Source: Diphasiastrum complanatum (lineage: Eukaryota > Streptophyta > Lycopodiopsida > Lycopodiales > Lycopodiaceae). Taken from it: 64,000 bases of DNA. The number at the start of each line of letters is the position of its first letter. Positions within the stretch are counted from its first letter, which is position 1. The position numbers and the translations under genes were made by a program. This document shows, piece after piece, positions 3,928 through 61,218 of this stretch. Below the pieces are notes generated by a model that was not told the origin of the DNA, made no database searches, and was given only the letters and a program-made list of their open reading frames with translations. The stretch is taken from assembly GCA_029204225.1 (NCBI GenBank), contig MU832123.1, forward strand, positions 22,035 through 86,034. Direction: 5' to 3'.

Positions 3928-4456
3928 TGTGAAAAATTGTCAAAAATCTATCTTGGTTATTTTATGATTTTATGTTTGTGAATATATTTCACATGTGTGG
4001 AGCATGTTCCCACATGTGTAAAATAGTTAGAAATAGTTTATAATGTTGACTTTAGGGGTATCATAAAGATTGCTGGTCAAACATCTTCGTGTCACTAGGT
4101 GATAGAGCCAATTTTGGCTTTAGAGGTCAAATGGTCAAGTACACATGTTTTGTCATGATTAGGCCAAAATTAAATTGTGATGTAACTCAAGCTAGTTAGG
4201 TTGCTTACACATGTCAAGTTTAGATTTGATGAGTGATGCCCCCTTTTAGTGGCAAAAGTCAAAGGGTCCAATCATACGAGAGAGATGTGTTGGAAGGTTC
4301 CAATCAAAAGTGAGGGAATGCATGTAGAATGGTCTTTTTGCCTTAGATCTTGTCATTGATCTTGGATTTCAATCAATAGGTGATCTGTAGTGCATGAGCC
4401 AAGCTTAGGAGATCAATTTCACCATTAGGACATTCCCATATGTGTGAATCTTCACA
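3928..4456 (+). repeat. Family-E LTR, copy 1 (5' LTR with PBS)
   Basis: It starts TGTGAAAAATTGTC, ends ATCTTCACA and is followed directly by TGGTATCAAAGCC (4457-4469), a tRNA-Met primer-binding site with one change. It aligns to the split copy at 54237-54459 plus 60613-61218. Relative to that copy it lacks about 290 bp after GTGAGGG near 4317. It contains the ACACATGTTTTGTCATG site that is occupied by element D in the other copy. TTCACATGTGTGGAG and similar palindromes occur near 3990, 4010 and 4440. Confidence 0.8.
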
Positions 4457-5804: not shown

Positions 5805-6327
5805 TGAGAGATTTAAATTTGAGTGTATCAATACGATCAACACCCGTTCTCGTATGTAGAGGGCAAGCTTGAAAGCAATGTCATAATTGTGTCTTGATCG
5901 TCGATGATCGATTCGACAACGGCCATCTGTTGCAAGAGATTCTTAAACTGGTTATTGTGATTTTGAAGTGAATCATCATTTGACATCTTGAGAGTGACGA
6001 ATTTTCTTCTTAGACGTAACTTGGAAGTTACGTCTCTCACATCATATAGTGAGCTCAGGATGTTTCATACTTATTTCGAAGTTTGAGCTTCAGATATGTG
6101 CCCAATTTGAGTGTCTCATATATTGAGGATAATAAGCGCAAAAGTTTACCATCCTTTGACTTTCCCTTTGAGTCAGATGTGCCCCCTTCAAGCTTCACTT
6201 CGATACCTATGACAACAACCCATAATTCATTGGCGATTAGCAAGGTCTTCATCATAAATTACCACAAATAGTAATTGGATCCATTCAGCTTGTCTGCGAT
6301 GAGACCGACTTTACTTTGAGAATCCAT
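5805..6327 (-). pseudogene. Family-B copia gag fragment (copy B2)
   Basis: On the minus strand the peptide starts near 6327 with MDSQSKVGLIADKLNGSNY and includes MKTLLIANELW and DVTSKLRLRRKFVTLKMSNDD, then VVESIIDDQDTIMTLLSSLPSTYEN. It matches the gag of element B (22382-23002) closely in order and wording. It is frameshifted near 6050 and breaks off at about 5805, losing the zinc knuckle and all of pol. The leader (6328-6543), PBS complement (6544-6555) and LTR follow to the right. Confidence 0.8.
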
Positions 6328-6543
6328 CTAGAACTTTAGTCTGTCAATTAAATTGATGACTTTAAGCATGATGTCGTGCGACACTACAATTGGAAATCAA
6401 TTATCTGATACTGAAATTTGATACCACAAATTGAAGAATTAAGAGCGGGTATGCTCTAATGTGATACTATAAAAAGTATCTAATGATATCTCTTTGATAT
6501 TGTGAAAGATATCAAGTAGTAGAGCTTTGGTGTAACAGTATAC

Positions 6544-6555
6544 GCTCTAATACCA
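6544..6555 (-). other. Primer-binding site of B2
   Basis: GCTCTAATACCA on the + strand reads TGGTATTAGAGC on the minus strand, a one-mismatch tRNA-Met PBS. It sits directly inside the LTR end at 6556. Confidence 0.75.
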
Positions 6556-7310
6556 TGTTGGAAAGAGGGAGGTGAAATGAGTTGGTTTGACAAGACGAAG
6601 GTTGTAAACGACTTATCGAATGCAACGGAATAAGCCTTCTTTCCTAATGCATGACTACGCCCATCAATTTGAACAAAGCTATGATGACAGACGTCACATT
6701 CAATCTTTTAGCAATATAATTTGAAATCATTAGCACTAAAGTGATTTTGTAGCCAATGCATGACTATGCCTATCAATTTGAACAAAGCTATAATGACAAA
6801 CATCACATTCAATCTTTTAGCAACTAAATTTGAAATCGTTGGCACTAAAGTGATTTTGTAGCAACTAAATTTGAAATCATTAGCACTCAATTGATTTCGT
6901 TGATGTATTCAACAAAATAAACGAAACAATAAGAGATTTATCAGTTACAAATAACTACAGAGAAGCATGGAATCTGACATGATACTGAACGCAATAAGAA
7001 AGATAGATTGATTAAGTAAGTAGCATGCACAAATCAAATGATGAGAGCACAAAATAATAATGGAGAAAATCGCGCACTCTAAGCTATCTCTGAGTAACTG
7101 AAAACTCTGTCTGATGCACTTCCGCTGATAAGCAGTAAGCACGAGCAACATAAAACTGAACTAAGATAGAAATTAAGCTTTTCTAAGATAGTATTTGATG
7201 ATCAGCTATTTATACTAAAGCAATTAACGCGTATCCAGTAGGACAACTAATCAAGCCACAGTCGCAATTGGTAAATGGCCATAATGCACTGGCATCCATC
7301 CAGTTAGGAC
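6556..7310 (-). repeat. Family-B LTR, copy B2 (5' LTR, partial)
   Basis: It starts TGTTGGAAAGAGGG on the + strand, next to the PBS, and shares blocks with the element-B LTR at 23211-24285. Shared blocks include AATGCATGACTA, CTATCTCTGAG, GCTGATAAGCAGTA, CTATTTATACTAA and CTGGCATCCATCC. A unit of about 108 bp is duplicated at 6646-6754 and 6755-6860, which the B LTR lacks. Similarity fades after about 7310, so the outer LTR end is not fixed. Confidence 0.7.
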
Positions 7311-11439: not shown

Positions 11440-11860
11440 GAAGGAAAACAAAAAACAAACTCAATTCAGAAACGCGTTTCTAGAAATGTGGTGCACCTAT
11501 GAGTCTATTGTTAGAAGCTAGAAGGAAGTTAAAGCGGGAGGGAAACATTGGAGATGCTTTGCATGAAATAAATACAGAGTTTATTTTACCTTTTATTATG
11601 GATTTGTGTTACCAAGCATTGTTAGAAGACTTTTATGACATATGGTCCCATAACATTATTGTTTTTTTGGTTTAGGAGTGGCGATAAGAATGATTTTTTC
11701 AACTAAAGCATAGTATTGGTGAAACGCGTTTCATCTCGTTTCCTTGAACATGGGAAACGCTCCCTAGGAAACAGTCATTTCCCTGATGGGATTCCTTGAT
11801 GGGAAACACTTTGTTTCCCAGAACACCTTCTGTTGGGAAACATTTTTAACTCTTAAAAAA
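11440..11860. repeat. Cluster of GAAACG/CGTTTC palindromes
   Basis: The cluster contains the 14-bp palindromes AGAAACGCGTTTCT (11468-11481) and TGAAACGCGTTTCA (11720-11733), then at least five GGGAAAC, GGAAAC or GTTTCCC motifs up to about 11850. The right edge abuts the presumed leader of element A and is close to the inferred inversion breakpoint. Identity unknown. Confidence 0.55.
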
Positions 11861-11869
11861 TGACCTAGA

Positions 11870-12201
11870 ATACTGCAACAAAGTATTTCGGCTGTAACCT
11901 CCAAACGAAGGGCACTCGGACTGTACCTGCAACTACGGTATAGCAAAACAGAGTGATTGCAGTGGAAAAAGTGTTCAGAGTGCGCCAAAAGTGATTTCAC
12001 CATTTCACTGAGCACGAAGTTGGGAGTTGATGACTGACTGCATTTCGGAAGGCGACGCCGATTTGGCTTTCAAATTGATGGAAAAGCGGCGAGTGGCCTA
12101 GTAAGGGAAAAAGTGCAGGTCATTATTTTCAACTTCTGATATCATTGTTGGCCTCGGCATACTATTTTTAGCCTACGGCAGAAGTTTCAAGTAGTTTTGC
12201 G
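11870..12201 (+). mobile_element. Probable leader (5' UTR) of copia element A, gag-proximal part
   Basis: Non-coding DNA directly upstream of the gag start of element A. No LTR or PBS is found to its left. The LTR/PBS-proximal half of a leader in the opposite orientation lies at 18841-19309. I therefore infer that this is the gag-proximal half, separated by an inversion. The left limit is approximate. Confidence 0.4.
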
Positions 12202-15200
12202 ATGGCAAACATGGGAGAGTCCATTTTGAGTGAAAGTAGCAAATTGGACGGGATTTCCAACTATGCAGTGTGGAAATTCAAAATGAAAAACATACTGATG
12301 GAGAAAGACGTGTGAGAAGTCATCACAGGTGATGAGAGAAGGCCGCCAAATGAAGCGGATATCAAAGTGTTGGACAAAAAGATGAGGAAAGCTTTGACCT
12401 TCATTAACTTGTCAGTGAAGGATCACATCATTACCCACATTTGTGATGTTGTTACACCCAGACAGGCATGGGATGTGCTAAAGGAGCAGTTCGATACGTC
12501 AAATCTGTCAAGAATCATGTTTCTGAAGTCAAAGCTGAATAGTGCCCGCATGGAGCAAGGAGAGCACATTCAGACGTACATGACCAGAATCAAGGCAATG
12601 AGGGATGAACTGCATTCTATTGATGAGCGCATACGTGATGTGGAGCTGGTGCACAATGCATTGTGTAACTTTGCAGAACCCTATCAGATGTTTGTGAGCG
12701 GAATAGCAGCAAGAGAAAGATTGACAACCTTTGACGAGCTCATAGAAATCTTGATGCAGGAAGAACAACGGCGAGAAATGGTAAAAGCTAGACATCAAAA
12801 TACTGACGATCAAGCACTTGCGACACGCCAAAGACAAGGTAAGGGCAAGAGCAAGAAGAAGTCTAAGCAGCAATTTGCCAAGTCTCAGGAGGATGAGGGA
12901 TCTTCCAGTAAGACCAAAAAGAAAGACAAGTGCCTCCATTGTGGTAAAAAGGGCCATTGGAAGAGTGAATGTCGCAAATTCTTGGCAGAATAAGACAAGG
13001 GAAAACCAAAACAAGCAGGTAACCTTCTCGATGAGGGTGAGATTGAAGACTCTAGCATCTTCATATCTGCATTGTCATCTAATCAAGATGATCAAATGTG
13101 GTATATTGACTCGGGAGCCACAAGACACATGACAAGTAACAAGAATTGATTCAGTAGCTTGAAAGTGTTGGATAATGGAACGTCCATTTCACAAGCAAAT
13201 GGTGAGGTGTGAAGGATCAAGGGGATAGGCACCATTTCAGTCCAACTACCTGATGGAAAAAGTAGGATGATCAGAGAGGTACTTTACGTACCAGATTTGA
13301 AAAAAAATCTACTTTCTGTTGGAGTCATTACTGATCAAAAGTTGAAAGTAGAATTTGCCCATGATCGTTGCTTTGTGAAGGATGTGAACCAAAAGTTCAA
13401 AGTTATTGCGGATGGAGTAAGGGAGCCCAATACAAAATTGTACAGGTTGAATGCTACAATCAAGGGCAACATGGACTTGTATCGTCCATTCCATCGCAAA
13501 CTAAGTTGTGGCATAAGAGGCTTGGTCACTTGAACTTGGGAAGCCTCAGTTTGATAAGAAGATTGGAGATGGTAACATGATTGCCTACCATAGAAGATCA
13601 CTTGAAATCGATGTGTGAATCTTGTGTATATGGGAAGCAGCATCGAGAGAAGTTCAATAAAGGGGCTGTTGCAAGAGCAAAGAACATCCTGGATTTAATC
13701 CACACAGATTTATGTGGGCCTATGAGGACCATGTCCTTAGGTAAAGCCTTCTATTTCATGACCTTTACTGATGATATGTCATGTAAGACGTGGATCTACT
13801 TCTTGAAGAAGAAATCGAATGCATTTGACAACTTCAAGAGCTTCAAAGCATTGGTCGAAAATCAGACAGGTAGGAAGATCAAAGTCCTAAGATCAGATAG
13901 TGGAGGTGAGTACAAGTCTAATGACTTCAATGATCTTTGTGACCAATGTGAGATTAAAAGACAATTTACGCAAGCTCATACTCCTGCTCTCAATGGTGTA
14001 GCTGAGCGCAAGAATCGTACGATTTTGGAAAGTGCCAGATCTATGCTAGCTGAGATGAAACTACCAAAAGATTTTTGGTCAGAAGCATGTAGCACGATAG
14101 TCTATCTTCAAATTAGAAGTCTTACCATTGTCATACCAGAGATAACACTTGAGGAAGCATTCACGAAGAAGAAGCCAAAGGTGAACCACTTGCGAATCTT
14201 TGGATGTAAGGCTTTTGTACACGTTCCTAAGGAAGAGAGACGTAAACTTGATGTAAGAGCTATCAAGTGTATATTCCTAGGATATGATGATCGTGTGAAG
14301 GGCTATAGATGTTTTGATCTAGTGAAAAACAAAATCCATATAAGCCGTGATGTTATCTTTGATGAATCCAAGATGTATGAAGACGAGGATGTTGAGAAGA
14401 TAGATACATCCAGTGGGAGAGATGGTATAGTGAGGATACCACCTGATGATGATCCATTCATTGACCTTCCAAGTGATGAAAAAGAGGATACATCTCAAGA
14501 TACTACTACTCAACCTCAAGAGACGGGTTGGAGAGGTAGGGACAAACCTTTTGGTGCAAGAAGGATTGAAGTTGAAGGTGACAAACGCAAGGAGAATGAT
14601 GTAAAGTGGGATACATTTTCACCGGGAAGCCGATCACCTGACAGGAAGCTCCCTAAGTGGTTTGAGAGATTGTTGGAGAGCCGCGACATGGATGACTTTC
14701 TAGGATCATCTAGCCAGGGAGAGCTACGAAGATCAACAAGAGAGAAGACACAACCTGAAAGGTATGAAGCAAATTATGCTCTCCTATCTAGCATTATTCA
14801 AAGCAAAGAACCTTTGACTTATGGTGAAGCGAAGGATGATGACATTTGGGTCAAGGCCATGGGAGAGGAGATGGAGTCAATTGCTAAGCATAGCACATGG
14901 GACTTAGTAGAACCACATGTTGGCAAAAAACCCATTGGTTGCAAATGGGTATACAGTACTAAGTACCATGCAGATGGAAGGATAGCAAAGCACAAGGCAA
15001 GATGGGTGATTAAAGGGTATGCACAAAGTAAAGGCATCGACAATGTGAGACCTTTGCGTCGGTTTGTAAGTGGAATACTCTATGTCTACTTGTTATTTTA
15101 GCTTCACATTTTGGTTGGCCTTTGCATCAGATGGATGTAAATTCTGTTTTTCTAAATGGTGAGTTAGAAGAAGAGGTGTTCATGGATCAACCTGAAGGCT

Positions 15201-16243
15201 TTGTAGTGAAGGGACAAGAAATTAAAGTATGTCACTTGAAGAAAGCGCTTTATGGTCTTAAACAGGCACCACGTGCGTGGTATAGCAGGATTGATGTTGA
15301 TGACTTGATTATTACGGAAAATAATCAAGAGATGATAAATATGATCAAGAAAGATCTCATGGAACAATTCGAGATGACAGATCTTAGTCTAATGTATTAT
15401 TGCCTTGGAGTAAAGGTGTGGCAAAAAGGACACAAAGTGGGTTTAACACAAGTGAAGTATGTCAAAGAGTTGCTGCACAGGTTTAAGTTGCAGGACTGCA
15501 AACCAGTGAATACTCCTATTGAACCAGGTAAAAAGTTTTCTAAGCTTCATGAGTCACAGTCATTTGATGCTACGCTTTATAGGCAATTAGTAGGGAGCTT
15601 GATTTACCTTACCACGACTAGACCAGATATATGCTATGTTGTTGGCATTGTAAGTCAGTTTATGGCAGCACCTACAAAAACGCATTGGAAGGCAGCTAAA
15701 CGCATTTTGCATTATGTGAAAGGCACAACAGAGTATGGCTTGATTTACAGGAAGCATGATGGTTTACCTAAGTTGTGTGGCTATGTGGATGCGGACTAGG
15801 GAGGTGACTATGTTGATCGTAGATCCACCACAGGATATATATTCCAGTTTTGTGGTAATTGCTTTTCCTGGTCTAGTAAGAAGCAAAGTACAATTGCTCT
15901 TTCCACCACATAAGCAGAGTATAAGGCAATGTGTAGTGCTGCACAAGAAGCTATATGGTTGAGACAAATCTTGGAAGAAATTGGCATGAAGCAAAAAAAT
16001 CCCGCGACTTTACATAGCGACAGTCAGAGTGGCATTCAGCTAGCAAAGAATCCAATGTTCCATGCGAGAACTAAACACATTGAGATTTAGTATCACCTCA
16101 TATGTGAGAGGCTGCTGAGTCATGAAATTCATGTTGTTCATTGTAGCACAGAAGAACAACTAGCTGATATTTTCACTAAGCCACTTGTTGGAGAAAAGTT
16201 TGATAAGTTTAGATCAAAGCTTTATGTACTTAAAGTTTGTTAA
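12202..16243 (+). pseudogene. Copia element A: gag-pol, multiply broken
   Basis: Gag starts at ATG 12202 (MANMGESILSESSKLDG, YAVWKFKMKNILMEKDV) and hits a TGA at 12313. It continues in frame with the UBN2-type gag to a zinc knuckle CLHCGKKGHWKSEC (about 12930-12972) and a TAA at 12991. Protease WYIDSGATRHMT is at about 13100. The integrase zinc-binding part (WHKRLGHLN … CESCVYGKQHR) spans a frameshift near 13510. The integrase core includes HTDLCGPM, LRSDSGGEY and VAERKNR (13700-14020). RT starts with KKPIGCKWVYSTKYHADG. A frameshift near 15050 and a deletion that fuses AWYSRID directly to VDDLII (about 15290) remove part of RT. RNase H continues to HTEEQLADIFTKPLVGEK-like sequence, with stops at 15799 and 15913. 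The frame ends at TAA 16241-16243. Confidence 0.9.
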
Positions 16244-16291
16244 CTTTAAAGCTATGTATATGACCGTATAAAGTAGACTCTACTTTGAGAG

Positions 16292-16565
16292 AGTTAGAAT
16301 TAAAGTAGAATCACTGTGCTACTGTAATGTGGGTCCTATCAGTTGATAAGGATCAGTTGGCCTCGCCACGAGGCAACTCGACGGGACACGCGTCCTGCCA
16401 ATGACAACCTGGGTCATGCATGGGTTGCTTGAGTGAACAACTATATGTACAGTGTAATTTCGTTTTGAGAAATACAGTTGCTTTGTGAGCTTGCTGGTGA
16501 GAGTGTTTTCTGTTTGTGTTACTGTGTAGCATGATCTGTGTTCCTGTGCAAAGTAAATTCTAAGT
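16292..16565 (+). repeat. 3' LTR of copia element A
   Basis: This 274-bp sequence matches 19310-19583 in reverse complement over its whole length, with roughly 6% differences by eye. It starts AGTTAGAATTAAAG after the purine-rich TTTGAGAG and ends AAATTCTAAGT, so its ends are not the usual TG…CA. The other copy's 3' end abuts a perfect PBS (19297-19309). The next bases, AGAGT (16566-16570), are the target-site duplication in element B. Confidence 0.85.
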
Positions 16566-16939
16566 AGAGTACACGGCTTTGATCCGCAACTTATTGTACT
16601 CATTTATTTCTGTTTCGTTTTGAATCAATACTATCCTTTATTGCGTTCAGCTTTGTCTCAGAATGTATGCATTTTCTGGAGTTCTTCGCGACTAATTATT
16701 TGTCTGATAATTTGATGCTTAATTGTTTGGCTACGTAATCACTGTAGTACTGACGATTTCAAAGTTAGTTACTATAAGATCAAACGTGATTTCTATCACT
16801 ATTGTTTTTTTTGAAATTGATAGGTGTCATGCATTGTGAAAGAGGAAGATAGTTTATTCCGCCATGCACGAAAAGATTTCTTTCTAGACATTTGTTTCTT
16901 TTCGAACTAGACCTATCTTCACAACACCACTTTCTGACA
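16566..16939 (+). repeat. Inverted piece of element B's 3' LTR
   Basis: It reads as the reverse complement of 23211-23588, the PBS-side part of element B's other LTR. Matches include the blocks around TGATCC…CAACTTATTGTACTCATTT, the GCGTTCAGCTT… block and the end ACACCACTTTCTGACA. It starts exactly where element A's 3' LTR stops. The base after its end begins ACTTT (16940-16944), the reverse complement of AAAGT. AAAGT is also the 5 bp beyond element B's right LTR (24286-24290). The missing rest of this LTR is at 19584-20358. Confidence 0.85.
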
Positions 16940-16944
16940 ACTTT

Positions 16945-18379
<1,435 letters not shown>

Positions 18380-18838
18380 CTAGTTGTTTTGACAACAAAC
18401 AGTCACACGGGAAATCACACAGTGAATGAGTGTCCTCAATTGAAAAAATGAATGGAAATCAATATATGCCAATTGTGCAATTTGCCTGGTCATGAGACTG
18501 CTTTTTGCAACTTCAATCCTCGGATCATTCAGCAACGGTATGTCTAGATGGAATATCGAGAACCACATTATGGAGGAAATCCGACAATTAGACCTCGTCA
18601 ATCTACTCTTGGATACCCGGAACGATTAGCCTAACCTGCCCCACCAAAGCACCCCGCTCCTCCTACCAATTCGATGGAACCAGAACCTTACAGAGGTGCC
18701 GAGCAATGGAATTATAGTAATGATTATGAAGGTGGATCTTTAGAACAATATGCTATTTATGCTGCCGTGCAATAACAAGCATTTAGAGACTGGACCAGAG
18801 CACCACTTGGATGCACTGCTAGGGCGCCCTCCTCCTGA
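18380..18838 (+). pseudogene. Gag-like relic with tandem CCHC zinc knuckles
   Basis: In the + frame through 18452 the peptide contains CQLCNLPGHETAFC, a textbook C-X2-C-X4-H-X4-C knuckle, followed by NFNPRIIQQRYV. Just upstream in the same phase HTVNECPQLKK looks like the second half of another knuckle whose first half (CFDN…) is out of frame. Downstream come Pro- and Tyr-rich segments (PAPPKHPAPPTNSMEP, EQWNYSNDYEGG) with stops at 18546, 18627 and 18771. Two knuckles plus a low-complexity tail suggest a retroelement gag or a host CCHC protein. It does not resemble the gag of A, B, C or D. Confidence 0.5.
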
Positions 18839-18840
18839 AT

Positions 18841-19296
18841 TTTTACAGCTTGCAAAATGAATCAGTATAGAGAGAAATCTTTGATTTTGTGCTCCCAAAC
18901 CCCAAACCAGGGTTTTTCACACAAATCTATTCTTGGCTTCCAATTCACATTGTTCTGACAGGCCTACTCTCTTGCTCTGAGGTCGCCCTACTGCCAGAAC
19001 TTTGATGCTTCAATCCGTTTGTCAAATGGTGTCCGATTGAATGCACACTGACTGCAAACACCAAATAACATGCTTTGGAATTTCAAAATTCTGTTTGCTG
19101 AGGTTCTGATTCAGCCGACAACCCTTGTCTTTGAATCCTCACACAGTCTCAAGCTCACCAAGCTTCCGTGTGCTAAACTCTCTACACCAGTGTTTCTCCT
19201 TCTGTTTTCAACCCGCCGTAAACCCCGAACTCTCAGAAGACAGTTCTCCCGAAGCTCTCTTCAACGACGATGTTGTCCTGTGTACACTCCTTGTAT
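18841..19296 (-). mobile_element. Leader (5' UTR) of copia element A, PBS-proximal part
   Basis: Directly downstream, on the minus strand, of the PBS at 19297-19309. No ORF is evident. The gag that should follow is absent here; the only gag with a fitting context is the + strand one at 12202. This is one of the arguments for an inversion inside element A. Confidence 0.5.
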
Positions 19297-19309
19297 GGCT
19301 CTGATACCA
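19297..19309 (-). other. Primer-binding site of element A
   Basis: The + strand GGCTCTGATACCA is TGGTATCAGAGCC on the minus strand, a perfect 13-base complement to initiator tRNA-Met. It abuts the LTR end at 19310. Confidence 0.9.
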
Positions 19310-19583
19310 ACTTAGAATTTGCTTTGCATAGGAACACAGATCATGCTACACAGTAACACAGACAGAAAACACTCTCACCAGCAAGCTCACAAAGCAACTG
19401 TATTTCTCAAAACGAAATTACATTGTACATATAGTTGTTCACTCATGCAACCCATGCATGACCTAGGTTGCCGTTGGGGGGACGCGTGTCCCGTCGACTT
19501 GCCTTATGGTGAGGCCAACTGATCCTTATCAACTGATAGGACCCACAGTAAAGTAGCACAATGATTCTACTTTAATTCTAACT
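19310..19583 (-). repeat. 5' LTR of copia element A
   Basis: 274 bp, the same length as and collinear with the inverted 3' copy at 16292-16565. On the minus strand it runs AGTTAGAATT … AAATTCTAAGT followed at once by the PBS. The next five + strand bases, ACTCT (19584-19588), are the target-site duplication of element A in element B's LTR, matching AGAGT at 16566-16570. Confidence 0.9.
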
Positions 19584-20358
19584 ACTCTATGCTATCTCTG
19601 AGCGACTAAAATGAAATTATGAATTAATGCGCAATGCTGATAAGCAGTAGCGCAATAGTAATCTCTAAAACAACTCTAAGAAGTAAGCTAGAATGCTCAG
19701 GAGTCTTCAAGCTCACAGGCTTGAGAGAGAGAGAGCTAACTATTCAAAAACTTCTTCTGATAATTCTGGTAATCTAATAATAATGATGTATGAATATGAA
19801 CAACTATTTATACTAAGAAATTAGGTCATCAATTGCGATTGCCAATTGGCTGTGATCCGTTGGCATCCATCCGATCCTTGTCATTGATTGCTGATAAGCG
19901 GTGAAATTGGTCGTAAATGTTGTGTCTGCATAAATGAACCAAAACTGTAGCTCTGCAGAAATGAACTAAAACAGCCACAAGCAACACTATCGGATTTTTC
20001 GCGAAAAAAATGAAGTGCTCTTAATTCTCATTCAGGATTGCCCCACACTTTGCCAGAGTCATTTCCTTGATATTTGAGGCTCTTCGAAAAAAGTGAAAAA
20101 TGCAACACTGTGATTTTACACGAGATTTCTAACAGGCGAAAAATACAAAAAAAGACGACACTGCATTTTTCAGCATGATTTCTAACAGGTGAAAAAGATG
20201 ACACTGTTGTCAACTCTGAGTATTTCTATAGACTGCATAAAAACACTTGTAATTCCGTAGACTATATAAAAACACGAAAAAAATCCACAGAACTAGATAA
20301 ACAATGGATGAAGATTAAAACCAATTAGACGATTGATAAGAAGGAAAATAATCCAACA
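19584..20358 (-). repeat. 3' LTR of element B, remaining piece
   Basis: It aligns base by base with 23584-24285 of the other LTR: CTATGCTATCTCTGAGCG…, GCTGATAAGCAGTAGCGCAAT, GATAAGCGGTGAAATTGG and the hairpin units of CGACACTGCATTTTT type. It ends AATAATCCAACA, followed by the PPT complement CTTCCCCTTA (20359-20368). Its other third was carried away by the inversion and lies at 16566-16939. Confidence 0.9.
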
Positions 20359-20479
20359 CTTCCCCTTAATTTGCATCCTTGAATGCCTTGACCTTCAAAC
20401 TTAGTTCTACATAGAATCTTCTGTGTGACTCCAAACTTAATGCTTTAGTAAAAACATCCGTTGTCATATCTTGCGTTTT

Positions 20480-23002
20480 ACAGTACTACAATCTGACCTC
20501 TTCATTGAGAACTTTGCTTCTAATGAAATGATACTTCAGTTCAATGTGCTTACTCTTGGAATGAAATCTAGGGTTGGTTGATAAAGTGATGGCACTTTGA
20601 TTATCACAAAATAATGTTGTCAGAGCATATTGATTCAGACCAATATCTGAGAGTAAATTCCTCAGCCAAATTGCTTCCTTTGTAGCTTGAGAGGCTGCGA
20701 TATACTCTGATTCAGTGGAAGATAGAGCTATTGAAGATTGTTTGCGACTGCTCCAGAAAATTGGACCATTGTTGAGAAAGAATGTAAATCCAGAAGTAGA
20801 TTTACGAGTGTCTACATCTCCTGCCCAACTTGCATCTGTATAACCATTGAGTAAATTGAGTTTGTCGTTGCCGATTGCTCCAATATAACAAATGCAAAAG
20901 TCCATAGTAGCTCGAACATATCTCATGACTTTGATAAGGCAGAAATGAGCTTCGTCCAGATCGGTCATGTCGAATTCGGAAGATAGCATTGTCTTGGCCT
21001 CTTTTATCAGATCGGTACTATTGTTGAAAAGCAATGTATCATCCACGTATAAAGTAATAATGATAAAAGGCTGCTGCACTGATTTGAAGTAAACGCTTGA
21101 ATCTGAAGAGCCAGACATGTAGCCGTGATCAATAAAGAAAGTATTGATCCTTTGAAACCATGCTCGAGCATATTGCTTCAAGCCATAAAGTGCCTTATGG
21201 ATTTTACACACATGATTGTGTTTACCCTTGATAATATAACCTTCGAAAAGCACCATGTAAATGTCTTCTTTGATAACTCCATTGAGATATGCTGACTGTA
21301 CATCCATTTGATGTACTTCCAAATCTGCTGCAGCGGCAAATGATAGCAAAAGTCGAATAGAAGAATGCTTGACTACTGGACTGAAGGTCTCAGTGTAATC
21401 GACGTTGTATACTTGAGAAAATCCTCTGGCTACAAGTCGTGCCTTTCTCCTGTTGATGCTTCCATCTGCGTTGTACTTGACTTTGAAACTTGTCGATATA
21501 CCGGTTAGGTGGTTTGTTTGTCCTTGATGATCTTCTAGGTAATATAGGAAGTTGATTATTTTCATCATATTGTAGTTGCTGATCTGCAGCATCATCATCT
21601 TCTGATTTGCCATTGATTTTTTGTTTGTCAAGAGTATAGGAGCTTGGACCTTCGATAGGAATAGTCGACTGGGAACTGGAAAGTTCAAAGCATCAGGAGA
21701 ATCTGATAGGTCGGCTACATGGGGGCTACCCTTTCCTTTAAGGTCTTGAAACTGATCTTCGATGAAGATGACATCCCGGCTAGTGAATATCTTCGACTCG
21801 ATGGGATCGAACTACTTGTAGGCTTGATCTGAAGTAGTGTACCCGATGAAAACACATTTGATACTCTGAAAGTCGAGCTTCTTCTTGAGATCATGAGGAA
21901 TCTACGCAAAAGCAGTACATTCAAAAACTTGTAAGTTTGATAAAGAAGGTTTGGTACCTGTCCAAACTTCAAATAGTGTTTTGTCTGAGAGGCCTTTAGT
22001 AAGACATCTGTTCTGAATATTGGTTGTTGTTGAAACAACTTAAGCCCATAAGCACTTCGGAAGTGTTGAATGTAATAACATGCACTTTGCCGATTCAACT
22101 AAGGTTCTATTCTTTCTCTCAACAAGACCATTTCACTGAGGCATATAGGAAGTAATGTATTGTTGCTCAATGTCGTTGTTAAGGCAGTAATCCTTGAATT
22201 TGTTTGAGATGTGCTTGGCTGCGTTCTTCGCTTGGAGAATTCGGTAATCCTTGATCTCATGGTTATTGCGCTTGAAATACCTGCAAAATATCTTCTTCTT
22301 TGACTATGGATCTGATGATTGTACTTGACTTTGAGTCTGTTTCTGATTCATTGCAGCCTTCTTGGAGCTTTTTTGCTTCTGTTACTTAGAGCCTTTGTTG
22401 ACATGTAGGGCATGAGAGGAGGAAGTAGACGAAGTGTCTTGACTTCTTCTATTGTCTTCTTGCAGCAACATAGTGATAACTCTAGTAAGAGTTAAATCTG
22501 AGTGTGTTGAAATGATCATCACCCAGTTCTCATATGTAGAGGACAAGCTTAAAAGCAATGTCATAATTGTGTCTCGATCGTCTATGACTGATCCGACAGC
22601 GGCCATCTATTGCAAGACATTCTTAAACTGGCTAATGTGACTCTGAAGAGAATCACCAGTAGACATCTTGAATGTGAATAATTTTCTTCGTAGATGCAAC
22701 TTACTAGTTACGTCCCTCATGTCATATAGTGAGTTTAGGATGTCCCAAACGTCTTTTGACGTTTTAGCTTCAGCTATGTGTCCAATCTGTGTATCTGATA
22801 TATTAAGAATAATAAGCGCAAAAGCTTTACCATCCTTTGATTTTTACTTTGAGTCGTCGTCTTCAGGTTTTACTATTGTACCTGTAACAAAATCTCATAA
22901 TTCGTTGGCGATTAACAAGGTCTTCATCTTTAATTTTCACAAATGATAATTGGATCCATTCAGCTTGTCTGCAATGAGACCGGCTTTACTTTGAGAATCC
23001 AT
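20480..23002 (-). pseudogene. Copia element B: gag-pol with internal deletions
   Basis: On the minus strand gag starts near 23002 (MDSQSKAGLIADKLNGSNYH, MKTLLIANELW) and runs, with stops and frameshifts, to AAVGSVIDDRDTIMTLLLSLSSTYEN (22606-22400). A damaged knuckle (CRYFKRNNHEIKDYRILQAKN, near 22260) is fused directly to mid-integrase (DYCLNNDIEQQYITSY … GLVERKNRTLVESAKCM, 22200-22060), so protease and the first half of integrase are deleted. A linker leads to RT in the long frame 21688-20486 (KARLVARGFSQVYNVDYTETFSPVVKHSS, LYVDDTLLFNN). There DLDEAHFCL jumps to KVMRYVRATMDF near 20940, losing roughly 100 residues between RT and RNase H. RNase H is complete at its end (DASWAGDVDTRKSTSGF, SSTESEYIAA, DNQSAITLSTNP). 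Confidence 0.88.
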
Positions 23003-23198
23003 CTAGAACTTAGTCTGTCAATTGTATCAATGACGCTAAGATGCAGTAATGCCAACAATAGGAAAATCAATTCTCTGATACTGAAAGGTTGAAAAGAACT
23101 AAAAAGTATGATTGTCAATTTGATATCGCGAAAGATATCAAGTATTAGAGCTTTCGCTCTGATATCATGTTGGAATCAGATAAAGAAGTAGTGAAAAT

Positions 23199-23210
23199 GC
23201 TCTGATACCT
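23199..23210 (-). other. Primer-binding site of element B
   Basis: The minus strand reads AGGTATCAGAGC, a one-mismatch tRNA-Met PBS, directly inside the LTR end at 23211. A second partial match (GCTCTGATATCA) lies about 40 bp further in. Confidence 0.75.
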
Positions 23211-24285
23211 TGTCGGAAAGTGGTGTTGTGAAGATAGGTCTAGCTCAAAAAGAAACAAATGTTTAGAAAGAAATCTTTTCGTGCATGGCGGAATAAACTA
23301 TCTTCCTCTTTCACAATGCATGACTATGCCTATCAATTTCAAACAAAACAATAGTGATACAAATCACGGTTTGATCTTATAGTAACTAACTTTGAAATCG
23401 TCAGTACTACAGTGATTATGTAGCCAAACAATTAAGCATCAAATTATCAGACAAATAATTAGTCGCGTAGAACTCCAGAAAACGCATACGTTCTGAGACG
23501 AAGCTGAACGCAATAAAGGATAGCATTGATTCAAAATGAAACAGAACTAAATGAGTACAATAAGTTGGGGATCAAAGCCGCGTACTCTATGCTATCTCTG
23601 AGCGGCTAAAATGAAAGTCTGAATTAATGCGCAATGCTGATAAACAGTAGCGCAATAGCAATCTCTAAAACAACTCTAAGAAGTGAGCTAGAATGGTCAG
23701 GAGTGTTCAAGCTCGCAAGCTTGAGAGAGAAAGCTAACTATTCAAAAACTTCTTCTGATAATTCTGATAATCTGATAATAATGATGTATGAATATGAACA
23801 ACTATTTATACTAAGAAATTAGATCATCAATTGTGATGCCAGTTGGCTGGTGCTCCGCTGGCATCCATTTGGTCCTTGTCATTGATTGCTGATAAGCGGT
23901 GAAATTGGTCGTAAATGTTCTGTCTGCATAAATGAACCAAAACTGTAGCTTTGCATAAATGAACTAAAATAGCCACAAGCGACACTGTCGGATTTTTCGC
24001 GAAAAAAACGAAAAAAGTGAAGGTGCCCTTAAATCTCATTTAGGGTTGTCCCACACTTTGCCAGAGTCATTTCCTTAACATTTGAGGCTCTTTGGAAAAA
24101 GCAAAAATGTGACATTGTGATTTTACACGAGATTTCTGACAGGCAAAAAATGCGACACTGCATTTTTCAACGGGATTTCTGACAGGCAAAAAAGACGACA
24201 CACGGGAAAATCAACAGAACTGGATTAACAATGGATGAAGATTAAAACTGATTAGATGACTGGTAAGAAGGAGAATAATCCAACA
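23211..24285 (-). repeat. 5' LTR of copia element B (complete)
   Basis: 1075 bp with TG…CA ends: on the minus strand it begins TGTTGGATTATTCTCC and ends CTTTCCGACA. It is the only unbroken LTR of element B and the reference for the split copy (16566-16939 plus 19584-20358). A run of hairpin-prone units lies near its outer (U3) end at about 23990-24200. The next bases, AAAGT (24286-24290), are the target-site duplication. Confidence 0.9.
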
Positions 24286-24389
24286 AAAGTTGCTTGAAAC
24301 ACTCAAGGATTCATTCATATGACTATCTTAGCTATCACGAGCTTCACTTTCAAATATATCAAAGTGCTCAAAATTCTTTAATTTTTTAT

Positions 24390-29815: not shown

Positions 29816-29861
29816 AGCGTGAGCAGAAACAAGGAGCGTGAGAGGGAGAGACCCCCCGTGC

Positions 29862-30012
<151 letters not shown>

Positions 30013-39777: not shown

Positions 39778-41651
39778 TCAGTTTACAGAATGGCAGTTGC
39801 GCCTGACTTGACCATTGTTGCCAGTTAGAACGTTGAAATTCGTGAGTTTGTTGTAAGCAGATGTAAAGGTGTTGAAGAACAGCTGTTGGTTTTGAGCAAA
39901 CTGTGCCACAGCTACAGAAGTTCTGGAATCTTGTCCCAGCTCGGCATCGACAGTAAAGAGGCCTCTGCCGTTGTTCAGATCTCGGAAGTATTGGTTATCA
40001 AAGATCAAATTTGTGAGGTCGTTGTTGACGACGGTGTTGTTGTTCAGTAATTGTGGTGTTGCAGTTGGACATTGAAGCCTGAGCTGACTAGAGAAAAGTG
40101 TCCCCAGAAGCTGATCTTGGGTGGGATACAATCGATTCACAATGTTGACGCAATGCCCAACTCCAATGGTATGTGCGCCTGTAACGAATAGTAGAATGTC
40201 TTGAGATCACTCGTCCTCAAACAAAATACTGTAGTTAAAGAAGCAGAATGTACAGTATGGAATTTAGGAATCGGCAGGAATTCTAACACTATTCTATCTT
40301 CGAAGTAAATAGCTGGATTGCAGCAAGATAGAAAAGCAGAGAAGCAAAGTTCACCAAGTAAAGCAACGCTTTCTTGCAAGCTCAGCCCTTTGGATTGAAA
40401 GATACTCAAGAAACCATCTATGCTAACTGAAGCTGGAGGAAGCGAAGTATCTGCTGCTAGGTTGCTGGCAGTTAGAGAGTCTCTTCGGCCAGTTTGAACT
40501 GGAATTCTTGGGCCCCCCGTTATAGCTATGGACTCTCGCCCAACAAGGACGATAATGTCCGCACATGAAACAGTACCAGGACAAACTGCCTCGAGAGATG
40601 CCTTAATTCGATCAATGAAGTCCAGACGTCTGATGCCAAAGTTCCTCTCTGAGACCAGCTCGCTTTTAAATGAGGCTGTAGAGTCCAAAAGGATTGAAGC
40701 GTCGCAAGTCTGTCCATCGTATCACCATTTTAGAACGTAGTTTACTTAAAAGAGTGTCTAGAGCAGGATTCATGCTAAGAAAATAAAATGGAAGGAGACA
40801 ATACGCACCCCAACTTGGCAGTCATGAAAAACCAGACGAAGAAGGGCAGCAGGTGCAGTTGGATCGGACAAGAAGTTGCCAGTAAACGCTGCTCTCACAA
40901 TATTCTCGGCGTTAGGGCAGCTTTGAGAATAGAATCCTTGTCTGAGACCACCAGGATTGTTACCTCCATTACCTGACCCTCCTCCGCCGTTGCCAGATCC
41001 ACCATTATTATTGCCTCCGCCATTGTTATTGCCTCCAGGACCGCCAAACCCATTGTTGTTGCCTCCACCATTGTTATTGCCTCCAGGACCGCCAAATCCA
41101 TTGTTGCCTCCGCCATTGTTATTGCCTCCAGGACCGCCAAATCCATTGTTGCCTCCGCCATTGTTATTGCCTCCAGGACCGCCAAACCCATTGTTGTTGC
41201 CTCCGCCATTGTTATTGCCTCCAGGACCGCCAAATCCATTGTTGCCTCCGCCATTGTTATTGCCTCCAGGACCGCCAAATCCATTGTTGCCTCCGCCATT
41301 GTTATTGCCTCCGGGACCTCCAAACCCATTGTTGTTGCCTCCACCATTGTTGTTGCCTCCGGGACCGCCAAACCCATTGTTACCGCCTCTACCATTGTTA
41401 TTGCCTCCACCGCCTCTACCATTGTTATTGCCTCCACCTCCGCCAAATCTACCGTTGCCACCATTGTTATCGCCTCCAGGCCCGTGGTCATTTCCACCAT
41501 TGCCACCTCCACAAATTCTATTAAAATCTTTATCTCCTCTATCCCGTGGATTATTACACTCCAAGGCAAACATTCTCTCCATTACACATTGCGTTATCAA
41601 TAGAAATAACAGAAACCCAGCTTGAGAGCGTGATAAAGAGCACGCATCCAT
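39778..41651 (-). CDS. Class III peroxidase with N-terminal Gly/Asn repeat domain
   Basis: A secreted heme peroxidase (hydrogen-donor:H2O2 oxidoreductase), of the family that oxidises phenolics and cross-links cell walls. Exons on the minus strand are 41651-40809, 40709-40355 and 40178-39778; introns of 99 and 176 bp have GT…AG ends and the joined frame gives 532 residues. Residues 1-29 look like a signal peptide (AGFLLFLLITQCV core). Residues 48-235 are Gly/Asn-rich repeats. The peroxidase domain follows: GFYSQSCPNAE, distal LLRLVFHDC (Arg272, His276), TCDASILLD, VCPGTVSCADI, GRRDSL, proximal GAHTIG (His402), LRLQCP and RRNCHS. The distal-proximal spacing (126) and all eight conserved Cys match the family. 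Intron positions after HDCQVG and inside ALLG/AHTIG are those common in plant peroxidases. Start 41651 was preferred over 41669 because it gives a cleaner signal peptide. Splice sites are predicted. The Gly/Asn domain is unusual for the family. Confidence 0.9.
40947..41510 (-). repeat. Gly/Asn-rich repeat tract in peroxidase exon 1
   Basis: Encodes residues 48-235. The core is eight units GFGGPGGNNNGGGNN or GFGGPGGNNNGGGNNN (15 or 16 residues), flanked by looser GGNNNGRG and GSGNGGGGSG stretches. The number of Asn before GFGGPGG runs 2,3,2,2,3,2,2,3, so a three-unit block (2,2,3) is repeated. The DNA repeats closely (CCGCCATTGTTATTGCCTCC on the + strand), which implies recent unit duplication. 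It is likely disordered or wall-associated, by analogy with glycine-rich wall proteins. Confidence 0.92.
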
Positions 41652-54236: not shown

Positions 54237-54459
54237 TGTGAAAAATCGTCAAAAATCTATCTTAGTTATTTTATGATTTTATGTTTGTGAGTACATTTCA
54301 CATGTGTGGAGCATGTTCCCACATGTGTAAAATAGTTAGAATAGTTTATAATGTTGACTTTAGGGGTATCATAAAGATTGCTAGTCAAGCATCTTGGTGT
54401 CACTAGGTGATAGGGCCAATTTTGTCTTTAGAGGTCAAATGGTCAAGTACACATGTTTT
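54237..54459 (+). repeat. Family-E LTR copy 2, left part (split by D)
   Basis: It begins TGTGAAAAATCGTC and aligns closely with 3928-4149 of copy 1. It ends at …ACACATGTTTT, the target of element D. GTTTT at 54455-54459 is repeated after D at 60613-60617. Confidence 0.9.
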
Positions 54460-55137
54460 TGTTAAAAATTCACAATTCTAGCTTGACTAGTTTTGGTCAT
54501 ATGACTTGTAAATAGTTAGATGGTCATGATGTGGCTTGTCACACGTGCCAAATAGCATAGGATTCCATTCATAAGTATGTTCTCAAGTAGAAAGTGTTAG
54601 AACCTTTGGAATGAGTCCAAATTATGCTTAGATACAAGGGAGAAAAAATAGGAGCTATTTTTGGTAGTTTTTGCATTGTTGAGGGATCTCCAAGATTCCA
54701 ACCCTAACTTGGTAGGGATGAAAGATCCACCAAAATTAGCATTAGGGATAGGTTTAGGGCTACTCATACCTGCCCAAAACCGTGATGGATCATGTATATA
54801 TAGGTGATGATATCTCACCAAAATCAATCAAGCAATTTCATGATTTTTCTCTCATAATGGTGCAATTGCTCTCTATGTTCATAATTGTTTGAGTACTTGT
54901 GATTACTAATGATTATAGGATTGAATGTAGGTCTGGTGTACAGTACTCAGACTGTGGGAGGCCGTACTTTCACACATGTGAAGCTTCTTCAAGGATTTGG
55001 GCCATTTAGTGAGGTTCAAGCATAGATTTTTGATGGATTTTGATGGTTCAACTTGTGCTAATCTTATGAAATCATAATCTATTGTTTTCCTCATCATTTC
55101 AAGTGTTTTAGGATCCTTATTTGCTGTAATTTTTACA
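54460..55137 (+). repeat. 5' LTR of element D
   Basis: 678 bp, TGTTAAAAATTCAC … GTAATTTTTACA. A TATATATA box lies at 54795-54802 and TTCACACATGTGAAG near 54968. Transcription of D would start a short way after the TATA box. Confidence 0.95.
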
Positions 55138-55150
55138 TGGTATCAGAGCC
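55138..55150 (+). other. Primer-binding site of element D
   Basis: TGGTATCAGAGCC, complementary to the 3' end of initiator tRNA-Met, directly abutting the LTR. Confidence 0.95.
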
Positions 55151-55948
55151 TAAAGGTTGAATTGAGCTAAATCCTTGGTTTTCATTCAATTTGATCACAA
55201 TTTTTTATCTAAATCTTGTGTAGATTGGATCTTAGCATCTAGTATTGATTCTATAACTCAAAGTGAGTCAAATACATTGGAGATTGGTGTTGTGTGACTT
55301 CATTTGCAGGTGTTTAGGTGTCTAAAACCAGAGGCAAAGTTGAATTCAATTCACATTACCAAGATAGCAAGTTTTGCTTGCTCCAAGCATTGATTTCTAA
55401 GCGAGTTTTGAAGGTGTTTTCATAGAGGAGGATTTCTAGCATTCAAGGAGAGGGAAGATCAGAGTTTTGGGGACTCTTCAAGGCTGTTCTAAGGTGTACT
55501 AGACACCTCCTAAAGTGATTTAGGTTCAGTCCAACCATTGCTTGACTTATGCACCAAATTAGATCAATTTTTCATCAATTTTGATCATTTTTTGCTTGTG
55601 ATTGGATAGTAGATTGTGTTGCATCCTCATTAAGTTCCATTTAGATCTTTTACAAGTGATTTTGGAAGTATATTAGGTTGCTGAAATTCACTCTTGATCA
55701 GATCATTTGGAAGCTTTAATGTTCTTTATAAAAAGAGGGGCAATTCTACTAGTATTGTCTACTTCAATCAAGCAAGTGCATTGTTTCTAGTATTCTATGA
55801 TTTGATTTTGTTAGAGATCATTCTTAGATCTTTATAGGAAGTCTATTACTAATCTTTTCAGGTCCCTAAGAAGTGGGATAAGGTAGACCTTCAATCAAAT
55901 CAATAGAAGTAACCTTCATTTGTGTCAAGTCCTTGACTAGGAGACTAG
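55151..55948 (+). other. Leader (5' UTR) of element D
   Basis: About 800 bp without a long ORF between the PBS and the gag start. It would hold packaging and dimerisation signals, but I cannot identify them. Confidence 0.7.
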
Positions 55949-58900
55949 ATGGCATCTATAAATGCATATCTTTTGGATACTAATGAAAGGCTCAACAAAA
56001 CTAACTATTCCATATGGAAAGTTAGAATGGAATCTATCATGATCATGCAAGATCTGATGGAAATTGTAAATGGTAAGGAGGGTGAACCTATTCATCCTCA
56101 AGAAAAAGCCAAATACATCAAGAGGTGCAATGTTGCACTACATTGCATAAAAATGAATGTTGCAAATGAACTCTTAAGAGAGGTAGGAGATTGCACTTCA
56201 GCTCAAGATGCTTGGGAGACTTTGCAAAAGGTCTATGAATCCAAGAACCAAACTAGAATGTTAGCTTTGAAGAATCAAATCTATAGAAGCTATCAAAAGA
56301 AAGGAGAGAGTGCACATACTTTTGTCCTAAGAGTAAAGGAATTGAACAAAGAGCTAGCCTTTATAGGTGACCCTATCAAGGATGAAGAGCTTGTTCAACT
56401 CATATTGAATGGACTAAGCTTTGAATTTGACAATTTGGTTCAGGGATATGCAATTATGGGTAAGCTACCCATACTTGAAGAACTCCAAGGCACACTCATG
56501 GCCGAGGAATCAAGAAGGAGCCAAATGCAAGAGAGGATGGATAGGCTTTCCATCCAAGGTGGATATGACCAAGCTCTCTTCACCAAAGGCAAAGGCAAGT
56601 CCAAAGGCAAAGGATCAACATTCAAGAAGTCTACAAAGCTTGAGGATCAAGAAGGACCCCCAAAGGCATCTCCATCAACCACCAAAGTCAAGAAGGACAA
56701 ATCAAAGGTGAAGTGCTACTATTGTAGCAAGATGGGGCATTATGCCTCGGAATGCTTCAAGAGGAAGCAAGATCAAAGCCAAGCCAACATGAGCAAAGAG
56801 GAGGAGGAGGAGAGTTCACATGAGGACTCTCTCATGATGTCCATATTTTCTTCAACAAGCTTCAAAGGAGAAGATCCTTGGTGGATTGACTCGGGTGCTA
56901 GTTCACACATGACTAGTAAAAGGGAGTTTTTCTCTTCTCTCTTATCTTATGATGGACCTATAAAGTCTATCTATACAGCAAATGATGAAGCTTGTAAGAT
57001 TGAAGGAGTTGGTAGCATTCCCCTTTGCTTAGGATCTTCCAAAAAGATCAACATAGAAGGTTTTTTGTACATTCCTACAATAACAAAGAATCTACTAAGT
57101 GTTGGCCAAATGGTAGACAATGGTTTCAATGTTGACTTTGCTTCAAATGAATGTTTCATCAAGAAGAAGGGTAAGATAGTGGCTAAGGGCACTAGACTTG
57201 GCAAACTTTATAAGCTGGATGCATTTGTGGATACTATTGTTGTCATGTTGGCCGAGAAGAGCAAGATATCTACCTTTACTTTATGGCACAAAAGACTTGG
57301 ACATGTCAACTCGGGTTCCATGGAGGCTATGATCAAGGAGGAGTATGCTTTAGGCCTACCAAGGTCTATTGGGAAGGAAGACAAGGTTTGTGAAGCTTGT
57401 GCCTTATCCAAGGCACATAAGAAGGTGTTTCCTAACTCCATCACAAAGTCATCTCATCCTCTTGAACTCATACACTCGGATGTGCACATTGCTAGCACCA
57501 AATCTAATGGAGGTTCATCCATGTTTTTAACCTTCATTGATGACTACTCAAGATATTGTTGGGTGTTCTTACTTTCCTTCAAGTCTCAAGTATTTGATAC
57601 TTTTATAAAGTTCAAGTTGTTTGTGGAAAAGCATCATAATCATAGCATCAAGATTCTTAGAAGTGACAATGGTGGAGAATTCATCTCCAATGAGTTCAAG
57701 GCCTTTTGTGAGGAGGAAGGGATCAAGAAAGAGACTTCTTGTCCTTACACTCCTCAACAAAATGGAGTTGCTGAAAGAAGGAATAGAACATTATGTGAAT
57801 GTTCTAAGGCTTTAAGATTAGATGCTTGTTTGCCCAAATCCTTTTGGGGTGAGTCTCTTGTATGTGCAAACTACTTGATGAATAGGGTGTCTTGCAAAGC
57901 AATTGAAGGCAAAACTCCTTATGAGATGTTGTATGGAAAGAAACCCAATCTTAATCACTTGAAAGTTTTTGGGTGTATATGTTATGTGCATGTGCCATTG
58001 GAAACAAGAACCAAGGAGGATCCATCTTCCACAAGAGGGATCATGCTTGGATATGCAAGCTCAAGCAAGGGCTACAAAGTCTATCTCCCATCCTTGAACA
58101 AATTTGTTGTTTCAAGGGATGTCATCTTTGATGAACATCATATGCATATGCTTGAAGAAGGCTCAAGTGCTCCAACAATCAAGAAGAAGATGGCCGAGGA
58201 GCAAGATCTTGGTTTTGAGGAGGAGCTCATGGAGGAGCAAGCACCAAACCCACCTATCACACCAAGGAGATCTTCAAGGGCAAAAGTGGAGCCATCAAGG
58301 CTCACATATCAAGGCAAAGGACAGCAAGTTGAGGGTATCTCATCCACTTCTTATGCTTTATCTAGTTTTGAAGAACCGTCTAATGTTGAAGATGCATTGA
58401 ACTCCAAAGAATGGTATAAAGCTATGTTGGATGAGTATGATGCCTTGATTGAGAATGAAACTTGGTTGCTTGTTGAGAGACCTCAAAGGAATGTAATAGG
58501 ATGCAAGTGGGTCTTCAAGCTTAAGTTGAATGCAAATGGGAGTGTTAACAAACATAAAGCAAGATTAGTTGCAAAAGGTTATGCTCAAGAGAGAGGGATA
58601 GACTATGAGGAAACTTTTGCACCCGTGGCCAAGATGGTCACAATAAGACTAATAATTGCACTTGCATCACATTTTGGATGGATTCTATGTCAAATGGATG
58701 TCTCTAATGCTTTCTTGAATGGTTTTTTGGAAGAAGATATCTATATGGAGCAGCCACAAGGGTTCATCAAGCATGGAATGGAGAACAAAGTATGCCATCT
58801 CCAAAGAAGCATCTATGGCTTGAAGCAAGCCTCGAGATCTTGGAATTCAAGACTACATTGCTATCTTATTTCACTTTCTTTTGTTCAAAGTGAATATGAT

Positions 58901-59917: not shown

Positions 59918-59920
59918 ATA

Positions 59921-59931
59921 GTGAGGAGGAG
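59921..59931 (+). other. Polypurine tract of element D
   Basis: GTGAGGAGGAG directly before the 3' LTR TGTTAAAA. The equivalent GAGGAGGAG precedes the C LTR. Confidence 0.85.
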
Positions 59932-60612
59932 TGTTAAAAATTCACAATTCTAGCTTGACTAGTTTTGGTCATATGACTTGTAAATAGTTAGATGGTCATG
60001 ATGTGGCTTGTCACACGTGCCAAATAGCATAGGATTCCATTCATAAGTATGTTCTCAAGTAGACCTAAGCGTTAGAACCTTTGGAATGAGTCCAAATTAT
60101 GCTTAGATACAAGAGAGAAAAAATAGGAGCTATTTTTGGTAATTTTTGCATTGTTGAGGGATCTCCAAGATTCCAACCCTAACTTGGTAGGGATGAAAGA
60201 TCCACCAAAATTAGCATTAGGGATAGGTTTAGGGCTACTCATACCTGCCCAAAACCGTGATGGATCATGTATATATAGGTGATGATATCTCACCAAAATT
60301 AATCAAGCAATTTCATGATTTTTCTCTCATAATGGTGCAATTGCTCTCTATGTTCATAATTGTTTGAGTACTTGTGATTACTAATGATTATAGGATTGAA
60401 TGTAGGTCTGGTGTACAGTACTCAGACTGTGGGAGGCCGTACTTTCACACGTGTGAAGCTTCTTCAAGGATTTGGGCCATTTAGTGAGGTTCAAGCATAG
60501 ATTTTTGATGGATTTTGATGGTTCAACTTGTGCTAATCTTATGAAATCATAATCTATTGTTTCCCTCATCATTTCAAGTGTTTTACGATCCTTATTTGCT
60601 GTAATTTTTACA
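59932..60612 (+). repeat. 3' LTR of element D
   Basis: 681 bp, nearly identical to the 5' copy. The TATA box is at 60270-60277. One difference converts CACACATGTG to CACACGTGTG. Confidence 0.95.
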
Positions 60613-61218
60613 GTTTTGTCATGATTAGGCCAAAATTCAATTGTGATGTAACTCGAGCTAGTTAGGTTGCTTACACATGTCCAGTTTAGGTTTGATGAGT
60701 GATACAGCACCCTATGTGGTGACAACAGTCAAAGGGTCCAATCATAAGAGAGAGATGGTTGGAAGGGTCCAATCAAAAGTGAGGGATGTTGCATCACACA
60801 TCCAATTGGATTAGAGAGGCTATGTTTAAGGGGTCCAATAGGAATTAAGCTTGGATCTCCACGAGTCTGTCCTTTCATTTTCTTCATTAAATTTATCAGA
60901 GATCTGTGAGTTTTTGAGTCAATTTGGAGATTTGCCAATTTTGCTCGTATTGCCTTCTCTCTCTAGATGAGCCCAAAAGTGGTATTTTCTCTCTCTACCT
61001 GAGGAGAGGAGCTTTTTGGGACTTAGTTTATTTCATGAAGTCTTCCACACGTGTGAAACACCTTTTGGTAATGAATGAATGCATGTAGAATGGTTTTTTT
61101 GCCTTAGGTCTTGTCATTGATCTTGGATTTCAATCAATAGCTAATCTATAGTGCATGAGTCAAGCTTAGGAGATCAATTTCACACATTAGGACATTCCCA
61201 CATGTGTGAATTTTCACA
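60613..61218 (+). repeat. Family-E LTR copy 2, right part (split by D)
   Basis: It continues the E LTR after the duplicated GTTTT (GTCATGATTAGGCC…), matches copy 1 to its end …GTGAATTTTCACA and contains about 290 bp (60787-61075) absent from copy 1. No internal element-E sequence and no PBS follow, so this is a solo LTR. I see no clean target-site duplication (GACGT on the left, ACGCC on the right). Confidence 0.88.

Follow-up and report, generated by a model that had tools for sequence, protein, structure and literature searches.

Displaced target-site duplications point to an inversion of about 7 kb through two nested Ty1/copia elements

Features of the locus

Two LTR retrotransposons of the Ty1/copia type, here referred to as A and B, and a piece of host DNA lie between about 11.87 and 24.29 kb of the window, by which we mean the whole 64-kb stretch of DNA that was analyzed. 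The arrangement was deduced from this one genome by means of target-site duplications (TSDs), in a window that contains no N. The features are as follows (positions, strand, description; a dot marks features given without strand).

11870-12201, +, second part of the A leader; from the sequence, left limit approximate (11.87 to 11.90 kb), ending at the likely gag ATG
12202-16291, +, gag-pol region of A, Ty1/copia type, decayed; from Pfam domains and open reading frames
16292-16565, +, 3' LTR of A; 257/274 identical to the other A LTR
16566-16939, + (in the sense of B), piece of the B LTR corresponding to 23211-23588, in reverse orientation to the remainder of B; 358/374 identical
16566-16570,., AGAGT, first copy of the A TSD; from the sequence
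16940-16944,., B TSD, inverted, ACTTT (AAAGT reversed); from the sequence
16945-18842,., host DNA that would be the former left flank of B, carried in the inverted segment; right limit approximate
18850-19297, -, first part of the A leader; from the sequence, inner limit approximate
19298-19309, -, primer binding site of A, TGGTATCAGAGC; immediately adjoining the A 5' LTR
19310-19583, -, 5' LTR of A; from global alignment with the A 3' LTR
19584-19588,., ACTCT (AGAGT reversed), second copy of the A TSD; from the sequence
19584-20358, -, piece of the B LTR (3' LTR in the sense of B) equal to 23584-24285; 633/691 identical
20359-23210, -, internal region of B with a copia reverse transcriptase; RVT_2, 4.2e-53
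23211-24285, -, 5' LTR of B, unbroken, 1,075 bp, with TG...CA ends; from alignment
24286-24290,., AAAGT, B TSD; from the sequence

Element A carries the Pfam domains Retrotran_gag_2 (3.4e-26), rve (2.6e-11), SH3_retrovirus (6.5e-34), and RVT_2 (4.3e-43) in its gag-pol region, and the succession of Retrotran_gag_2, rve, and RVT_2 places integrase before reverse transcriptase, which is the copia order. Reading of the open reading frames puts the likely start of gag at the ATG at 12202, and the frames of gag-pol are broken by stop codons and a frame change. The primer binding site is one that we take to match initiator Met-tRNA. Globally aligned, the two LTRs are both 274 bp long, gapless, and on opposite strands. 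What remains of A is these two LTRs and a single internal region, which is cut once, in the leader; no second copy of the leader or the internal region was found in the 64-kb window by blastn self-comparison (E 1e-8), and outside this comparison 13759-13940 matches elements other than A at 62%, once at 50582 and once at 57528. The two LTRs of an element are expected to share one orientation, which those of A at present do not; we attribute this to a later rearrangement, do not take it as excluding A from the Ty1/copia elements, and still count A among them. Programs that search for LTRs in direct orientation would fail to pair those of A.

Both copies of the A LTR have AG...GT termini (AGTTAGAA...TTCTAAGT) in place of the usual, although not defining, TG...CA. 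Since the unbroken B LTR shows the target site of A, in our reading no placement of the duplication within the shared TAGAGTA yields TG...CA ends. Copia elements with ends other than TG...CA are known, among them TG-TT and AA-CA and, from earlier cases, TA-CA and TG-TA (PMC5659011); AG-GT is absent from the atypical copia ends given in the part of PMC5659011 available to us.

Searches for other copies of A covered collections of viruses, plasmids, bacteria, and archaea, and their misses therefore say little for a plant-like genome, as this one seems to be from the types of element in the window. The gag-pol DNA (12200-16250) had no match in the plasmid collection in distant mode. Viral contigs yielded 0 matches to a 21-base leader pattern, 2 pattern stretches for the gag protein, and 2 for the integrase-side protein, none of these stretches confirmed. 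The integrase-side protein gave 13 pattern stretches in prokaryote genome contigs, again none confirmed, and a 26-base LTR pattern gave 0 matches there.

Element B has a copia-type reverse transcriptase (Pfam RVT_2, 4.2e-53) and LTRs with the termini TGTTGGAT...TTCCGACA. A polypurine-rich stretch, presumably the polypurine tract, adjoins 20358, and what we take to be the primer binding site adjoins 23210, so named, B has TG...CA ends, a TSD, a primer binding site, and a polypurine tract. Part of a B-like element occurs elsewhere in the window, where 5809-6756 is 74.8% identical to 22488-23427 over 974 columns; this part has with it a 108-bp direct duplication (6646-6753 and 6755-6862).

Nesting and target-site duplications

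In global alignments, 16566-16939, taken as its reverse complement, agrees with 23211-23588 at 358 of 374 positions, with 4 gap columns, and 19584-20358 agrees with 23584-24285 at 633 of 691 positions, with 95 gap columns. Jointly, the two pieces account for the full length of the B LTR, and their sole overlap is at 23584-23588, where the sequence is ACTCT, the TSD of A. This is what a nested insertion leaves behind, namely, an interrupted outer LTR whose pieces overlap by the TSD of the inner element. The outer ends of both A LTRs are flanked by AGAGT, and A accordingly has both paired LTRs and a TSD. An earlier note on this DNA had described the A LTRs (16292-16565 on the plus strand and 19310-19583 on the minus strand) as facing opposite ways, each joined to a complementary piece of the same B LTR, and had located AGAGT at 16566, ACTCT at 19584, and AAAGT at 24286-24290 and, reversed, at 16940-16944; all of these placements are exact to the base, with the B LTR pieces overlapping by five bases.

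Two random 5-mers drawn from the window match with a frequency of 0.0015 (200,000 draws), from which we calculate, as a simple product, a chance of ∼2 × 10−6 for two such matches at fixed places. The window is rich in repeats, and unrelated fragments of A and B might in principle have come to lie together by chance, but the pieces are exactly complementary and two TSDs are in register, and we give such a chance arrangement next to no credence.

Divergence of the LTR pairs

The two LTRs of A differ at 17 of 274 positions (K2P 0.065) and those of B at 74 of 1,065 (K2P 0.074), with no difference between the two elements (Fisher p 0.79); the values agree with an insertion of B before A but do not separate the two events. 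Substitution rates of 1.3e-8 and 7e-9 per site per year, both in use, would put the ages of the LTR pairs at ∼2.5 to 4.7 million years for A and ∼2.8 to 5.3 million years for B. The two pieces of the B LTR are unequal in divergence, at 16/374 against 58/691 (K2P 0.044 against 0.090, Fisher p 0.011), and the LTR dates are therefore rough. This inequality is not predicted by one clock; gene conversion or an uneven constraint could explain it. The inversion postdates the insertion of A.

A probable inversion through the nested pair

With the region divided into 11 blocks, each given a sign, 66 single inversions are possible; we went through them all, and 1 rebuilds A inside one B LTR. This inversion begins with the internal region of A and ends with host block 16945-18842, and when the result is read by hand, the two TSDs of B lie in the same orientation at the ends of B. 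As we defined the blocks ourselves, this result is bookkeeping and not independent evidence. Each element has its primer binding site, and B its polypurine stretch, where the inversion model requires it.

An inversion of ∼6.95 kb through the nested pair, following the insertion of B and then of A, is well supported, the order of states being read from the junctions. In its full form, the history very probably consists of the insertion of B, the insertion of A into the 3' LTR of B, and then an inversion between the A leader and host DNA. Element B, on the minus strand, would have inserted and duplicated AAAGT; A, then also on the minus strand, would have inserted into the B 3' LTR and duplicated AGAGT. 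Double-strand breaks in the untranslated leader of A and in host DNA ∼1.9 kb beyond the end of B would have followed, with the ∼6.95-kb piece between them rejoined in turned-over orientation. The breaks may have been repaired by end joining, for which the 7-bp inverted match GCTGTAA perhaps served as a guide.

The earlier note had further held that flipping the segment from about 11.87 to about 18.84 kb restores A on the minus strand inside an unbroken B LTR with the TSDs in place, and block model and hand reading both bear this out. Its order of events, B, then A, then inversion, is also supported, with B before A following from the nesting. Its central claim of an inversion of about 7 kb after nesting stands in substance, given that only 1 of the 66 inversions rebuilds A in B; the word "proven," which it used, is too strong, because each breakpoint carries an uncertainty of some tens of bases and a less parsimonious history could give the same arrangement.

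That history involves no 7-kb inversion. It has a solo A LTR in the B LTR and a second A at a host site ∼2 kb off, the latter inserted as a circle opened in the leader (leader part, gag-pol, LTR, leader part), with recombination between the two A LTRs flipping 16566-19309 as the last step. Flipping the segment between the inverted A LTRs in the block model gives exactly the block order that the circle would have left, and recombination between LTRs is a common process; however, three more events are needed, namely, an insertion of A not made by integrase, the conversion of the original A into a solo LTR, and the LTR flip. We consider the circle, its insertion, and the final flip all quite improbable. 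Were this history the true one, which we doubt to the same degree, the inverted LTR pair may still let the intervening 2.7-kb piece turn.

Breakpoints

The outer breakpoints of the favored inversion, at ∼11.87 and ∼18.84 kb, are approximate to within some tens of bases. The left one lies in the A leader, upstream of the ATG at 12202 with which gag likely starts, and the right one lies between host DNA and the A leader. An inverted-match search gave the following candidate features.

11891-11897,., GCTGTAA, candidate breakpoint microhomology, left
18843-18849,., TTACAGC, candidate breakpoint microhomology, right

Comparison of 11701-12100 with 18701-19000 (400 against 300 bases) recovered four 7-bp inverted matches, one of which is the 11891/18843 pair, and none longer than 7 bp. 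Among 2,000 pairs of shuffled 40-mers of the same composition, a fraction of 0.0595 had a match of at least 7, so that a match such as GCTGTAA has a probability of ∼0.06 of arising by chance. Microhomology-mediated end joining via GCTGTAA is compatible with these data, although not shown by them. A second short match, TGCAA, is present at 11874-11878 and, on the reverse strand, at 18850-18854; it directly adjoins the 7-bp match on the right and is separated from it by 12 bases on the left. It makes an alternative breakpoint possible, and we make no firm choice between the two. The best purine change points were 11580 and 18878, the left one being ∼300 bases off and of no help for the breakpoint. 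In nhmmer searches of the window, two pieces of leader and two of host DNA found only themselves, save for the right host piece, which also had two matches in or beside its (CT)n run.

With a longest inverted match of 7 bp in the regions compared, long inverted repeats are not seen there, and recombination between such repeats at these breakpoints is therefore unlikely. The same figure bears on whether the assembly has 11.89 to 18.84 kb in the wrong orientation. Wrong-way placement in assemblies is expected between long inverted repeats, and the 7-bp maximum argues against a misassembly driven by repeats; nor does the window contain any N. An assembly error could draw on the (CT)n run at about 17536-17703 and on the recurrence that A may have elsewhere in the genome, and we see only a slim chance that it accounts for the arrangement.

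Recombination between inverted copies of an LTR involves LTRs in opposite orientation. In our best reading, by contrast, the inverted LTR pair is the product of the inversion and not its cause. Inversion between the A LTRs was considered as the first cause and set aside, as the two LTRs of an element share their orientation until one of them is turned by some other event.

Comparison with known systems

In a comparison of human and chimpanzee, 203 of 252 inversions fell outside the main class, and 63 of these were associated with L1 or Alu (PMC2603318). The element there spans one breakpoint only, and microhomology is named as one possible cause. The present case resembles that set in having one breakpoint in a retroelement and the other elsewhere; it differs in that an LTR element of a seemingly plant genome was involved and TSDs within one genome were used, whereas PMC2603318 concerns primate L1 and Alu and compares two genomes. 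The REANNOTATE study describes a later rearranged cluster in which COPIA2 LTRs carry nested INVADER1 LTRs at a single, fixed position (PMC2672092). Insertion order is taken from nesting in both cases, but the rearrangement in PMC2672092 is interpreted as a tandem multiplication, and here a single inversion cuts the inner element. The passages on inversions available in PMC2773423 concern large ones. Among the literature searched by title and start of abstract, we found no report in which TSDs revealed an inversion within nested copia elements, although one may exist.

The rearrangement is one of decayed repeats, cleanly readable and ordinary in kind. It provides a clean example from a single genome in which two TSDs reveal and order a small inversion, of a sort that in a repeat annotation might appear as fragments without relation to one another.

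Other features of the window

The host piece 16945-18842 contains a (CT)n run and a broken zinc-knuckle-like frame. The frame, at 18398-18802, includes a zinc-knuckle-like stretch (CQLC..GH..FC) with a Pfam E value of 0.088, below the curated cutoff, and is perhaps the gag of a third element. The long (CT)n run at 17536-17703 and a (GA)n run at 29833-30005 are mutually inverted and 12 kb apart. A tandem array at 41007-41468 has a copy spacing of 45 or 48 bases. A young LTR element occupies 54460-60612, with repeats at 54460-55137 and 59932-60612 that are 98.5% identical over 681 columns and with GTTTT flanking it on both sides. This element sits in a repeat (flanks at 54237-54459 and 60613-60786) of which an empty copy is present at 3928-4456, 90.9 to 95.5% identical to the flanks and with a single GTTTT at 4147-4151.
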